This document shows positions 1,947 to 37,025 of a stretch of 37,025 nucleotides of DNA, one piece after another. A model generated the notes under the pieces. The model was not told where the DNA came from and made no database searches. It was given only the letters and a program-made list of their open reading frames with translations. Position 1 is the first letter of the stretch. Every line of letters starts with the position of its first letter. The position numbers were made by a program, and so were the translations under genes. Origin of the DNA: Chloroflexota bacterium (GTDB lineage: Bacteria; Chloroflexota; UBA11872); the NCBI GenBank assembly GCA_026707585.1, contig JAPOWQ010000052.1, forward strand, positions 1 through 37,025, written 5' to 3'.

Positions 1947-2093
1947 TTGGTATGTCCACTGTCGGCAGTCACGGGCAGTGTGACTGACCTGCGGGGAAGC
2001 CGCCAGCAGTTTTGAGCGGACCTCTTCTGGCGAGCTCTGGGTAGCCCGGGGGCGGCGTGCGACGGGACTGGTCGCTGGACGTGGGCGCACGAC

Positions 2094-2170
2094 CCGGGGA
2101 CCCCTCACCGGTTTCGGCCGAAGACGCCCGAACCTGCCTCTCCCCTCGGAGAGGGTGAAGAGCACCGCGC
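2094..2170 (+). repeat. Structured intergenic repeat, copy A
   Basis: This is one copy of a two-hairpin repeat also found at 5623-5724, 5838-5936 and 36913-37025, all in the same orientation. Hairpin 1 has arms 2113-2120 and 2125-2132 around an AAGA loop, with one C-C mismatch. Hairpin 2 is a perfect 7-bp stem, CCTCTCC (2137-2143) with GGAGAGG (2148-2154). It lies upstream of the aldolase gene, not behind a gene end, so a pure terminator role does not fit this copy. A degenerate version of the upstream 'GTAGCCCG' part is visible around 2041-2060. Confidence 0.8.
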
Positions 2171-3820: not shown

Positions 3821-4055
3821 CGGAGACGACATTATGCCCCGCTGGCAGGCGTGGCCATGGCATCGCTCTCTGTCTCCTGGACGAGGCCTCGTTGACGGGG
3901 AGCGTGGGGTGCGGCAACTGAGCAAAGCTCTCTCCGAGAGCGGGGGTAGGAGCCATCACGCCTTTGGGGACGATTGGGGTTGGGTGCAGGTGTCGCTTGG
4001 GACGGCGGGGGTGGAATGGCGTAGGCTCACGCGGTCGCGTGGATAGGTGAAGGCC

Positions 4056-5507
4056 ATGCCCGAGCGCAAACCGCACATCCTGATGCTGATCAATGACGAG
4101 CACCGCCCGGACGTGATGCCGATCGAGGGCGACCCGCACATCCGCACGCCGACGCTGGATTGGATGATCGACGGGGGTTTCTATTTCCGAAACGCCTACA
4201 CGCCGTCGCCCATTTGCGTGCCGGCGCGACAGGCCTTTCTTTCAGGGCTCTATCCCCGGAATTGCGGTTGCGCGAACTTCGGCGACGCGATGCCGAGCGA
4301 GGTGCTGACGATTCCGGGACACCTCTCGCGCTACGGCTACACGACCTGCGCGGCCGGCAAAATGCACTTCGTGGGGCCGGACCAGATGCACGGCTGGCAC
4401 CAGCGCATCGGGCGCGACATCGTGGGCCGCAACGGCTACGAGCCGGCGGACGATCCCGAGCACCAGGCCCTGATCGAACGAGATCCCGGCACGGGGTCCT
4501 GGCCGGACAAGGTGAAGCAGGAAATCAGGTACGCGCGGGCCGGACGCGGGCACTGGATGCAGCACGACCGCTACTCGGTGGACGGCGCGCTGATGTTCCT
4601 GGATGAGCACTTCGTGAACGAGCCGTACGACCGGACCAACCCCGCCCCGCTGCTGCTGGCGGTGAGCCTGTGGTCGCCGCATTACCCCTACCAATGCCCG
4701 GACGACCTGTTCGCCTACTACCTGCGCCGGGTCAAGCCCTTCGAGGAGGACGTGCCGGAGCACTTCGAGTGCCCGGACTTCTTCAAGGTCGAGGTGGGGA
4801 AGGACGTGACCTACCGCGAGGCGCACCGGGCCACGGCGGCGTACTACGGGATGATCGAGTGGATGGACGCGCAGTTCGCCCGGGTGATCGACAAGCTGCG
4901 CGAACTGGACGTGCTGGACGACTTCGCCATCGTGTTCCTGTCCGACCACGGCGAGATGCTGGGCCAGAAGGGCCTGTGGGAGAAGCAGCAGTACTTCGAG
5001 GGGTCGGCGCGCGTGCCGTTTGCCGTGCGCTGGCCGCAGCGGTACCCGCAGGGCGGCGCCACCGTTCAGCGCAACGTCTCGCTGGTGGACCTGTTTCCGA
5101 CGCTTTGCGACATCGCCAACGTGCCGATACCGGAAGGGCTGGACGGCCGCTCGGTTGCGCCACTGCTGGAGGGGAAGGACGAGGACTGGCCGGACGACGT
5201 CTACAGCGAGCTCTGGGCCGTGCACAACGGGCCCTCCGTGATGGTGAAGCACGGCGAAATGAAGCTGTTCCGGTTTGACGGTCATGAGGGCACACCCGGA
5301 CTGGGTCCGGATTGCCCCGAGCAGCTCTTTGACCTGGCGCGCGATCCCGATGAGACCACAAACCTGATCGACCACCCGGACTACGCGGACCGGCTGGCGG
5401 ATTTGCGCGCCCGGCTGGATGCGCTGCCCGATCCGCGGAAGAAGGATGCGAACAACCGCTTCGTCGGCGAGGAACGCGAGCCGTATGTGCCACGCCGCAG
5501 GGCTTAG
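4056..5507 (+). CDS. Type I sulfatase (formylglycine-dependent)
   Basis: The 483-residue enzyme hydrolyses sulfate esters. The sulfatase signature C-x-P-x-R is C54-V-P-A-R58 in SPICVPARQAFLSGLYP; C54 would be oxidised to formylglycine by a maturase not seen in this window. Metal ligands are expected at N13/D14 near the N terminus (LINDEHRPD) and at D297-H298 (LSDHGEMLG), followed by the family block GLWEKQQYFEGSARVPF. The ATG at 4056 has AGGTGAAGG just upstream; a GTG at 4047 in the same frame is possible. There is no signal peptide, so it is probably cytosolic, which fits choline-sulfatase-like or intracellular glycan sulfatases. Substrate not determinable. The gene stands alone. Confidence 0.92.
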   Translation: MPERKPHILMLINDEHRPDVMPIEGDPHIRTPTLDWMIDGGFYFRNAYTPSPICVPARQAFLSGLYPRNCGCANFGDAMPSEVLTIPGHLSRYGYTTCAAGKMHFVGPDQMHGWHQRIGRDIVGRNGYEPADDPEHQALIERDPGTGSWPDKVKQEIRYARAGRGHWMQHDRYSVDGALMFLDEHFVNEPYDRTNPAPLLLAVSLWSPHYPYQCPDDLFAYYLRRVKPFEEDVPEHFECPDFFKVEVGKDVTYREAHRATAAYYGMIEWMDAQFARVIDKLRELDVLDDFAIVFLSDHGEMLGQKGLWEKQQYFEGSARVPFAVRWPQRYPQGGATVQRNVSLVDLFPTLCDIANVPIPEGLDGRSVAPLLEGKDEDWPDDVYSELWAVHNGPSVMVKHGEMKLFRFDGHEGTPGLGPDCPEQLFDLARDPDETTNLIDHPDYADRLADLRARLDALPDPRKKDANNRFVGEEREPYVPRRRA

Positions 5508-5622
5508 CGCGGGGAGCGGAGGATCTCGGATATCGGCTTTCCTATTGGCTAGGCGCTTGTCTGGCGGGTGCGGGTGGCGCCTGGCGTTTGTCTGCACCGG
5601 GGGACTGGCCGAAAAAGAGACG

Positions 5623-5724
5623 TCTGCGTAACCCGAAAGTGGTTGCCCGGAAGACCCCTCACCGGTTTCAGCCGAAGACGGCTGAACCTGCCTCTTCCCC
5701 AGGAGAGGGGAAAGACCGGCGTCC
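5623..5724 (+). repeat. Structured intergenic repeat, copy B
   Basis: The copy starts with the TGCGTA...TGCCCGGAAGACCCC leader shared with the other copies. Hairpin 1 is perfect: TTCAGCCG (5667-5674), AAGA loop, CGGCTGAA (5679-5686). Hairpin 2 (about 5690-5708) pairs CCTCTTCC with GGAGAGG with one bulged T. It lies about 115 bases behind the sulfatase stop. The first 115 bases of the gap (5508-5622) hold nothing recognisable. Confidence 0.85.
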
Positions 5725-5754
5725 CCTTGAATAGATTGAGACCGAGCAAAGTTG

Positions 5755-5830
5755 CTCTCCCCCAGGGAGACCTTTGCGTAGCCCGAGGGTGGGTGCCCGG
5801 AAGACCCTTACCCCAGACCTCGCCCACGGG
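5755..5830 (+). repeat. Partial repeat, copy C
   Basis: This is a truncated member of the same family. It has a small TCTCCC/GGGAGA hairpin at about 5756-5770, then the leader TGCGTAGCCCGAGG and TGCCCGGAAGACCC (5776-5807). It lacks hairpin 1 and passes directly into copy D. That arrangement suggests tandem growth or deletion within the array. Confidence 0.7.
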
Positions 5831-5837
5831 AAGCCTC

Positions 5838-5936
5838 TGCGTATCCCGACGTTGGTTGCCCGGAAGACCCCTCACCGATTTCCGCCGGGGACGGCGGAAT
5901 CTGCCTCTCCCCTTGGAGAGGGTGAAGAGCGCCGCG
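5838..5936 (+). repeat. Structured intergenic repeat, copy D
   Basis: The leader TGCGTATCCCGA...TGCCCGGAAGACCCC is followed by a perfect 8-bp hairpin 1, TTCCGCCG (5880-5887), GGGA loop, CGGCGGAA (5892-5899). Hairpin 2 is also perfect: CCTCTCC (5904-5910), CCTT loop, GGAGAGG (5915-5921), then GGTGAAGAG. The hairpin 1 stem differs from copy B at a base on each arm in a way that keeps pairing. Confidence 0.85.
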
Positions 5937-5989
5937 CCTCTGAGAGGTTGGAGTCCGTCCGCAGGTGCTGGGGCGTGGATCGAGACCGG

Positions 5990-6137
5990 AAGCCGCCGCA
6001 CCTTCGCGGACGCCGTAGGTTTTGCACAGGTCTCTCGAGGGAGAGTGAGGAAGAGGCTGCGCTGGCGAGGGCCAGGCGAGGTTTGCAAGGGTCTCTCCCC
6101 TGGGAGAGGGTGAAGATCCGCCGCACCTTCAAGGACG
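5990..6137 (+). repeat. Two tandem hairpin modules upstream of MDR gene
   Basis: A unit of about 100-125 bases occurs twice. In each a TTTGCA run precedes a CTCTC...GAGAG hairpin, at 6031-6046 (CTCTC/GAGAG) and 6091-6108 (CTCTCC/GGAGAG), followed by GTGAgGAAGA or GTGAAGA. The phrase CCGCCGCACCTTC appears at 5995-6007 and again at 6119-6131. These modules share hairpin 2 with the larger repeat but lack hairpin 1. The last one ends about 40 bases before the next start codon and could affect its transcript leader. Confidence 0.6.
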
Positions 6138-6177
6138 ATGGGCTTAACGCAAAGGTTTCATCAAGGGAGGACTGCAC

Positions 6178-7197
6178 ATGACGGCTGAGACGAATCTGCA
6201 GGTGGTGCTGGCGCGGCGGCCGGTTGGGGTTCCGGTGGTGGAGGACTTTGCGCTGCGGGAGTCGGCGATTCCGGAGGCCGGAGCGGGCGAGGCGGTGGTG
6301 CGGACCGAGTTCGTTTCGGTGGACCCGTACATGCGGGGGCGGCTGTGGGAGCAGCCGCATCGCGGGGATCCGGTGGCGATCGGGCAGGTCATGATCGGCG
6401 AGGGCGTGGGCGAGGTGGTGGCCTCGAGCGATCCGGCCATGGCGGTGGGCGAGACGGTGCGGGGGTACTTTGGGTGGCAGCAGTACGCGGCGGCCTCTGT
6501 CGACGAACTGGAGCGCATCGACCGTTCTGCCGCGCCGCTGTCCACCGCGCTGGGCGTGCTGGGGATGCCGGGGTTGACGGCGTATTACGGCTTGTTGGAG
6601 GTCGGTCAGCCTCAAGCGGGCGAGACGGTGGTGGTGACCGGAGCGGCGGGCGCCGTGGGCAGTGCGGTCGGGCAGATTGCCAGGATCAAGGGCTGCCGCG
6701 TGGTGGGTGTCTGCGGCACCGAGGCCAAGTGCCGGCACATCGTGGACGACCTAGGGTTCGACGCGGCGGTCAACTACCGCACGGACTCGCTGGACGACGA
6801 CCTGGCCGCGGCCTGTCCGGACGGTATCGACGTGATTTTCGAGAACGTGGGTGGCGAGATCCTGGAGGCGATGCTGCGGCAGATCAACCTGCATGCCCGT
6901 ATCGCGCTCTGCGGCGCGATCGCCCAGTACCACACGGCCGAGCCGCCGCTGGTTCCGCCGCACTCGCGAACCCTGCACCGACGGCGGGCGCGCATGCAGG
7001 GGTTCCTGGTGAACGACTTCGCGGACCAGGACGAGGAGGCGATGGCCGCCTTGACCGAGTGGGTGACGAGCGGGCAGATCGTCTATCGCGAGAGCATCGT
7101 GGATGGGCTGGAGAATGCCGCGTCGGCGTTTGTGGGGCTGTTTAGCGGGGCGAATACGGGGAAGCAGTTGGTGCGGGTGCGGGCGGAAACTCAGTAG
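6178..7197 (+). CDS. NADP-dependent MDR-family oxidoreductase
   Basis: The protein is 339 residues long and belongs to the zinc-independent medium-chain dehydrogenases (leukotriene B4 12-hydroxydehydrogenase / CurA / YncB type), which reduce the double bond of alpha,beta-unsaturated ketones or aldehydes with NADPH. Seen in sequence: the family block VDPYMRGRL near residues 43-51, the nucleotide-binding loop GAAGAVGSAVGQIA near 156-169, and FENVGGEILEAML near 221. The Cys ligands of zinc alcohol dehydrogenases are absent. Start: ATG with GGGAGG seven bases upstream. It is a single gene behind the repeat array. Role inferred as detoxification or reduction of reactive enones. Confidence 0.93.
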   Translation: MTAETNLQVVLARRPVGVPVVEDFALRESAIPEAGAGEAVVRTEFVSVDPYMRGRLWEQPHRGDPVAIGQVMIGEGVGEVVASSDPAMAVGETVRGYFGWQQYAAASVDELERIDRSAAPLSTALGVLGMPGLTAYYGLLEVGQPQAGETVVVTGAAGAVGSAVGQIARIKGCRVVGVCGTEAKCRHIVDDLGFDAAVNYRTDSLDDDLAAACPDGIDVIFENVGGEILEAMLRQINLHARIALCGAIAQYHTAEPPLVPPHSRTLHRRRARMQGFLVNDFADQDEEAMAALTEWVTSGQIVYRESIVDGLENAASAFVGLFSGANTGKQLVRVRAETQ

Positions 7198-36854: not shown

Positions 36855-36912
36855 GCGAGCGTTCAGCGGATGGGGCCGTGCGGCGGCGATGGCGCCTTCG
36901 ACCGAGAGACCC

Positions 36913-37025
36913 TTGCGTAGCCGGAGGCTGGTTGCCCGGAAGGCCCCGTACCGATTTCGGCCGAAGACGCCCGAACCCCGGATCGAGTCCGGGGCAGGTT
37001 CTGCCTCTCCCCTCGGAGAGGGTGA
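36913..37025 (+). repeat. Structured intergenic repeat, copy E (cut by window end)
   Basis: The leader TTGCGTAGCCGGAGG...TTGCCCGGAAGGCCC is followed by hairpin 1 (36956-36963 with 36968-36975, one mismatch). An inserted third hairpin follows, CCCCGGA-TCGAG-TCCGGGG (36976-36994), then hairpin 2 CCTCTCC (37004-37010) with GGAGAGG (37015-37021). It begins about 58 bases behind the phnA stop. Confidence 0.85.

Follow-up and report, generated by a model that had tools for sequence, protein, structure and literature searches.

The question raised by this locus is what kind of element underlies a two-hairpin repeat that recurs along the stretch of DNA analyzed here (the window, 37,025 nucleotides, which is contig C54 of a 75-contig MAG of 3.92 Mb). 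A sequence-only reading had described the repeat as dispersed, folded, mobile, and locally of one orientation, and had suggested that it is a REP/BIME-like element moved by a RAYT. Our analyses bear out that description but not the attribution to a RAYT. Instead, it is very likely that the repeat is the interior of a family of small, gene-less transposons (MITEs) that are moved in trans by an IS5-family DDE transposase.

Comparison of occupied and empty sites between species revealed that the family is mobile, with inserts starting near the "leader" that the copies share and finishing at its inverted copy. This leader is a MITE's left terminal inverted repeat (TIR); the ends of the MITE are GAGACCTTTGCGTAACCC...TTTTGCAAAGGTCTC. 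TIR-bounded units were of two types: type a units (142–143, ~205, or ~230 bp), which carry the two-hairpin core, and type b units (121–123 bp), which have a single CCCTCTCCC hairpin. Exact duplications of 5 or 6 bp were present at 22 of 91 candidate MITE end pairs, compared to 2.1 in shuffles (maximum 9). The left TIR was found, within five mismatches, beside 43 of 100 strong cores and at 4 of 139 random sites. The remaining 57 of the 100 strong cores have varied leaders, some with degraded ends, and the family is therefore a mosaic built around a MITE rather than a single clean element. We interpret cores with no recognizable TIR as mosaics of these modules that have decayed, been truncated, or recombined.

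This mosaic character is apparent in the window. All four copies listed in the sequence-only reading (at 2094, 5623, 5838, and 36913) are present and on the + strand, although the leader said to be common to them occurs only in three (at 5617, 5830, and 36906) and is absent from the copy at 2094. The copies at 5623 and 5838 are parts of a three-level nest at 5617–6159, flanked by a sulfatase gene (4047–5507) and a dehydrogenase gene (6178–7197), in which E2 lies inside E1, and E3 inside E2, all on the + strand. The outermost MITE, E1 (5617..6159), is of type a and has its left TIR, GAGACGTCTGCGTAAC, at 5617–5632 and its right TIR, ACGCAAAGGTTTC, at 6147–6159. Based on the alignment and pair counts, its hairpin 1 is GGTTTCAGCCG-AAGA-CGGCTGAACC (5664..5688) and its hairpin 2 is CCTCTTC-CCCA-GGAGAGG (5691..5708). 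A further E1 hairpin, TTGCTCTCCCCCAGG...CCTGGGAGAGGG, can be read from the sequence as having been broken in two by E2. The interrupting element, E2 (5767..6095), is a type b MITE without the two-hairpin core, bounded by GAGACCTTTGCGTAGC (5767–5782) and TTGCAAGGGTCTC (6083–6095), and is in turn interrupted by E3 (5830..6034), a 205-bp type a MITE placed in the E2 hairpin. The left TIR of E3, GAAGCCTCTGCGTATC (5830–5845), is degraded, and its right TIR is TTGCACAGGTCTC (6022–6034). Its core (5855–5928) scored 103 bits with the covariance model described below, and the alignment and pair counts place its hairpin 1, GATTTCCGCCG-GGGA-CGGCGGAATC, at 5877..5901 and its hairpin 2, CCTCTCC-CCTT-GGAGAGG, at 5904..5921. 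A weak core match at 6042..6116 (+; 21.8 bits) is composed of sequence from the right sides of E2 and E1.

The remaining two window copies lie outside the nest. The copy at 2088..2161 (+; 88.7 bits; hairpin 1 at 2110–2134, hairpin 2 at 2137–2154) is a core for which no TIR was found in the flanks. At the other end of the window, E4 (36906..37025, +; core 51 bits) is a type a MITE cut by the contig end, with its left TIR at 36906–36921, hairpin 1 at 36953–36977, and hairpin 2 at 37004–37021. Between these hairpins is an extra hairpin module, CCGGATCGAGTCCGGGGCAGGTTC (36978..37001, +). The insertion had been noticed previously; it is a separate small repeat that directly follows hairpin 1 and recurs there in other copies. 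It and a second module, the 24-nt hairpins CCGGATCGAGTCCGGGGCAGGYTC and CTTCGGCNNGCTCAGGACAGGYTC, share this one insertion point between the two core hairpins in many copies. Exact target duplications were not found at the window copies, and the flanks of E1 no longer hold one.

To follow the family beyond the window, a covariance model of the core was built, as had been proposed, and searched against the genome; the copies found were far beyond chance. In its own genome, BLAST returned 73 core matches, and the covariance model at least 144, a lower bound because scoring covered only 150 of the 4717 candidates and the ends of several contigs fall within copies. Hairpin 1 has 10 pairs and one bulged T. 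Across 37 aligned copies, 96.3% of its cells (sequences, not events) were paired and four pairs had double, compensatory changes. The alternative stem pairs claimed for it are real, as pair 30-43 is G-C, C-G, or A-T and pair 25-47 is A-T or G-C, but one of the listed stems, TTCGGCCG/CGCCCGAA, is imperfect, with a C-C mismatch at its sixth pair. The covariation score of hairpin 1 was 0.168 versus 0.068 in shuffles (reached by 0 of 500) and at most 0.039 when the partner was slid by 1–3 columns. One and the same swap was seen on several neighbor-pair backgrounds, which suggests that compensation may have arisen independently more than once. Hairpin 2 is nearly invariant, and covariation is therefore uninformative about it. 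Copies in other MAGs were sought with a pattern that put no constraint on the variable stem positions; among the 110 recovered, pair 30-43 was standard (G-C, C-G, or A-T) in 98%, but pair 32-41 in only 52%, the non-standard cases being mostly C-C. Conservation of pairing is therefore strong without being uniform. When folded as DNA, the full 143-bp unit was more stable than shuffles (z -4.6).

A candidate partner was found by searching the same genome with the end sequence. A full insertion sequence (IS) at C68:1335-2527 encodes a 325-aa IS5-family transposase (C68:1400-2377) that matched NF033581 (IS5 family; 289 bits, cut-off 140), PF01609, and PF05598. Its TIRs are GAGACCTTTGCAAAACCC, which corresponds to the MITE right end, and TTACGCAAAGGTCTC, which corresponds to the left end, with agreement over 15 and 18 bp. 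The two IS ends differ from each other (GCAAAA and GCGTAA), and both versions are found on the MITE, reversed relative to the gene. The likeness is confined to these 15–18 bp and the internal sequences are unlike. IS homologues with like TIRs are flanked by 6-bp duplications in G006 (CTCAAG) and G016 (CCTTCG), and the G006 copy appears to sit inside a MITE hairpin. A close homologue was not detected in G001, G007, G008, G009, or G012, all of which are rich in copies; the IS could have been lost in assembly or have died out there. We infer that the C68 transposase is the mover of the MITEs.

The RAYT attribution has to be weighed against this, as does the thought that the repeat is primarily an RNA. 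REPs moved by a RAYT (Y1) transposase on single-stranded DNA would share with this family its intergenic placement, hairpins, high copy number, and orientation with a replication-like strand bias, and atypical REPs without a GTAG foot exist (PMC6006769). The genome also has one RAYT-like gene, its only and weak Y1 match, but a different short repeat lies inside and around that gene. When a RAYT was looked for in 12 genus relatives, no Y1 transposase was found at E≤0.001, and 10 of these 12 Y1-free genomes carry 42–105 core copies each. Furthermore, the foot 5' of the hairpin is CACC/CCGA, with no GTAG/GTGG found, and the TIRs and target duplications are features that REPs lack. Movement by a RAYT is for these reasons most improbable. 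The RAYT-like gene is located at C69:10763-10924 (NF047646, 63 bits, below the cut-off). An IS200/IS605-derived element was also considered and rejected given the target duplications and the lack of Y1 genes in the 12 relatives. A structured RNA or transcript-end element, kept for its RNA fold and spread only incidentally, would fit the covariation of hairpin 1 and the intergenic position of 133 of 139 copies (as judged with a home-made gene caller). Yet there was no Rfam match to the repeat at the gathering score, with only two tRNAs matched in the window, and the gene contexts of copies (++ 32, -- 33, convergent 29, divergent 17) have no link to gene strand. As TIRs and duplications already account for the spread, we regard this explanation as very improbable also.

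The nest in the window is not an isolated case. Of 157 left ends, 40 (25%) were ≤18 nt after a CCCTCTCCC hairpin arm, compared to 2.2% of random intergenic positions, and guest and host copies had the same orientation in 20 of the 22 nests where both were readable. These data point to a transposase that would favor stem-loop targets, and the paired hairpins may, as a result of that preference, be kept both as transposition structures and as landing sites. IS1397-type elements insert in the loops of E. coli palindromic units. That behavior is similar to the insertions into repeat hairpins described here, except that here the targeted hairpins are those of the element's own family.

The core was detected (E≤1e-8) in 10 of 12 other members of the genus, was not found at that threshold in six genomes from another genus of the same family, and was present in one of the 22 remaining genomes from the order and class. 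The exception, G038, is a 69%-complete MAG from another family of the same class with four strong matches (best E 9.7e-23), which represent either horizontal transfer or contamination. Carriers among Chloroflexota MAGs include SB0662_bin_61, the RHO1-3 bins, CO36386bin_13, and the jk18x bins. These carriers probably come from sponges, and bacteria of the genus are probably sponge-associated.

During these studies we noted that the orientation of copies follows a strict pattern. Neighboring copies shared a strand in 70 of 70 cases at ≤5 kb, 16 of 17 at 5–20 kb, and 9 of 18 at >20 kb. Copy strand tracked the GC skew of its surroundings (rho 0.84) but showed no such relation to the coding strand (rho 0.05), and gene strand was rejected as the cause. 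In the genome itself, 49 of 52 clusters agreed with GC skew at fourfold sites (p 1e-11), and in relatives 84 of 85 loci agreed with GC skew (p 4e-24), these p-values overstating independence as some relatives share ancestral insertions. The first regions were picked because they contained copies, and the whole contigs C28, C36, and C65 give a less biased view. The strand bias in base composition probably reflects replication direction. Replication-linked orientation is known for Tn7 (through TnsE) and for several IS families via the beta clamp (reviewed in PMC5371812). Literature searches for beta clamp with element orientation, IS5 MITE with hairpin, and Chloroflexi intergenic palindromes found no match. 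The IS5-family transposase may work at replication forks or close to them; the orientation of the element would then be fixed relative to fork direction. In the regions examined, other intergenic repeat families (e.g., CGGCTCACCACGAA and TGTGGTTCGACACG) were also oriented with GC skew, which indicates that the rule is not MITE-specific and need not stem from the IS5-family transposase.

The idea that the elements themselves make the skew was weakened by three observations: the core contains G and C in near-equal number (23 and 24), skew values were taken after masking of the elements and at fourfold sites of genes on either strand, and the closed relative G002, with almost no copies, has smaller skew jumps. 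Two other explanations concern orientation only. An asymmetric preference for G-rich or C-rich targets, with no sensing of forks, gains from the correlation of orientation and skew, which sequence data alone cannot fully part. However, nests in near-palindromic hairpins keep the host orientation (as noted above), the duplications CAGAG, CTGGTG, TCTGAG, and GCATAG follow no simple one-sided rule, and a skew of 0.1–0.2 would seem insufficient to yield 84 of 85 through target numbers, so that we consider such a preference doubtful. That copies arise from their neighbors by tandem duplication or gene conversion, with inversions later carrying skew and repeats together, would suit their clustering, the loss of agreement beyond 20 kb, and the shuffling of synteny blocks between species. 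It would not lead one to expect that nearly all of 52 separate clusters agree with skew, that separate insertions with their own duplications do so too, or that skew forms a linear gradient, which inversions alone do not give, and this origin of the orientation appears unlikely.

The skew itself is unusual in form. On each of C28, C36, and C65, GC skew flips sign several times, and at fourfold sites it forms N-shaped waves from about +0.7 to -0.7 over 50–150 kb, as it does on C36 of G006. The fall in GC3 skew is linear (r -0.89 in C28, 0–95 kb; r -0.84 in C65, 105–240 kb; r -0.89 in G006 C36, 100–170 kb) and is present in genes of both strands, with a small strand effect. Elements lie in 5-kb bins of greater absolute skew (median 0.50 versus 0.28). 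Blocks common to G000 and G006 differ in order but keep their skew (r 0.99, same sign in 10 of 10). No DnaA-box clusters were found at the skew jumps and nothing consistent was found for tRNAs there; the C65 window with the lowest GC proved to be a run of Ns at an assembly gap. In G002, sparse samples revealed small skew jumps on a weak, ordinary two-arm trend. Three jumps within 0–200 kb of this closed genome fall at genes of restriction-modification or defence type (Eco57I, MmeI, PLD-helicase).

Several sources could contribute to these waves: fork-start zones located at block edges, starts that depend on recombination, and old, slowly relaxing inversions. The first two may be favored, but only weakly, because the G002 jumps are near defence-type genes and its trend is the ordinary two-arm one. 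Many fork-start zones could explain the waves. It is conceivable, if rather doubtful, that the chromosome consists of synteny blocks of tens of kb to ~150 kb with MITE-rich edges, in which forks mostly run inward from many start zones or from recombination-dependent starts at repeat-cluster breaks, that GC3 skew declines linearly between the two edges of a block, and that MITE orientation records fork direction. If true, this would be a bacterial counterpart of eukaryotic N-domains.

The element is very likely an IS5-family MITE, a known kind. MITEs derived from IS5-family and related elements, with archaeal examples described in PMC3852290, are likewise gene-less, 140–252 bp long, and bounded by inverted repeats of 15–17 bp, with 5–24 or more copies and likeness to their partners at the ends only. 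The family described here differs from them in having at least 100 copies, duplications of 5–6 bp (compared to 0–3), a covarying internal hairpin, self-nesting, and skew-linked orientation; the hairpin, nesting, and strictness of orientation are what is new. With REP/REPIN systems and their RAYTs (PMC3116915, PMC6006769) it shares intergenic location, hairpins, high copy number, and mosaic arrangements, but it differs in its TIRs and target duplications, its lack of a GTAG/GTGG foot, and its lack of a cognate Y1 gene. A REP-like appearance with covariation need not, then, imply a RAYT. Tn7/TnsE and the clamp-linked ISs (PMC5371812) also have a one-strand orientation bias, whereas here the bias is near-absolute and flips with GC skew, a proxy for fork direction, every 50–150 kb.

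A MITE whose insertions fall in the hairpins of sibling copies, and whose internal pairing is kept, links the structure of DNA to the choice of target. More surprising as a lead is the pattern of skew. With such near-perfect agreement, each copy is a possible marker of past fork direction, and together with the N-shaped waves this raises the question of whether replication starts at many places on a bacterial chromosome in this genus.
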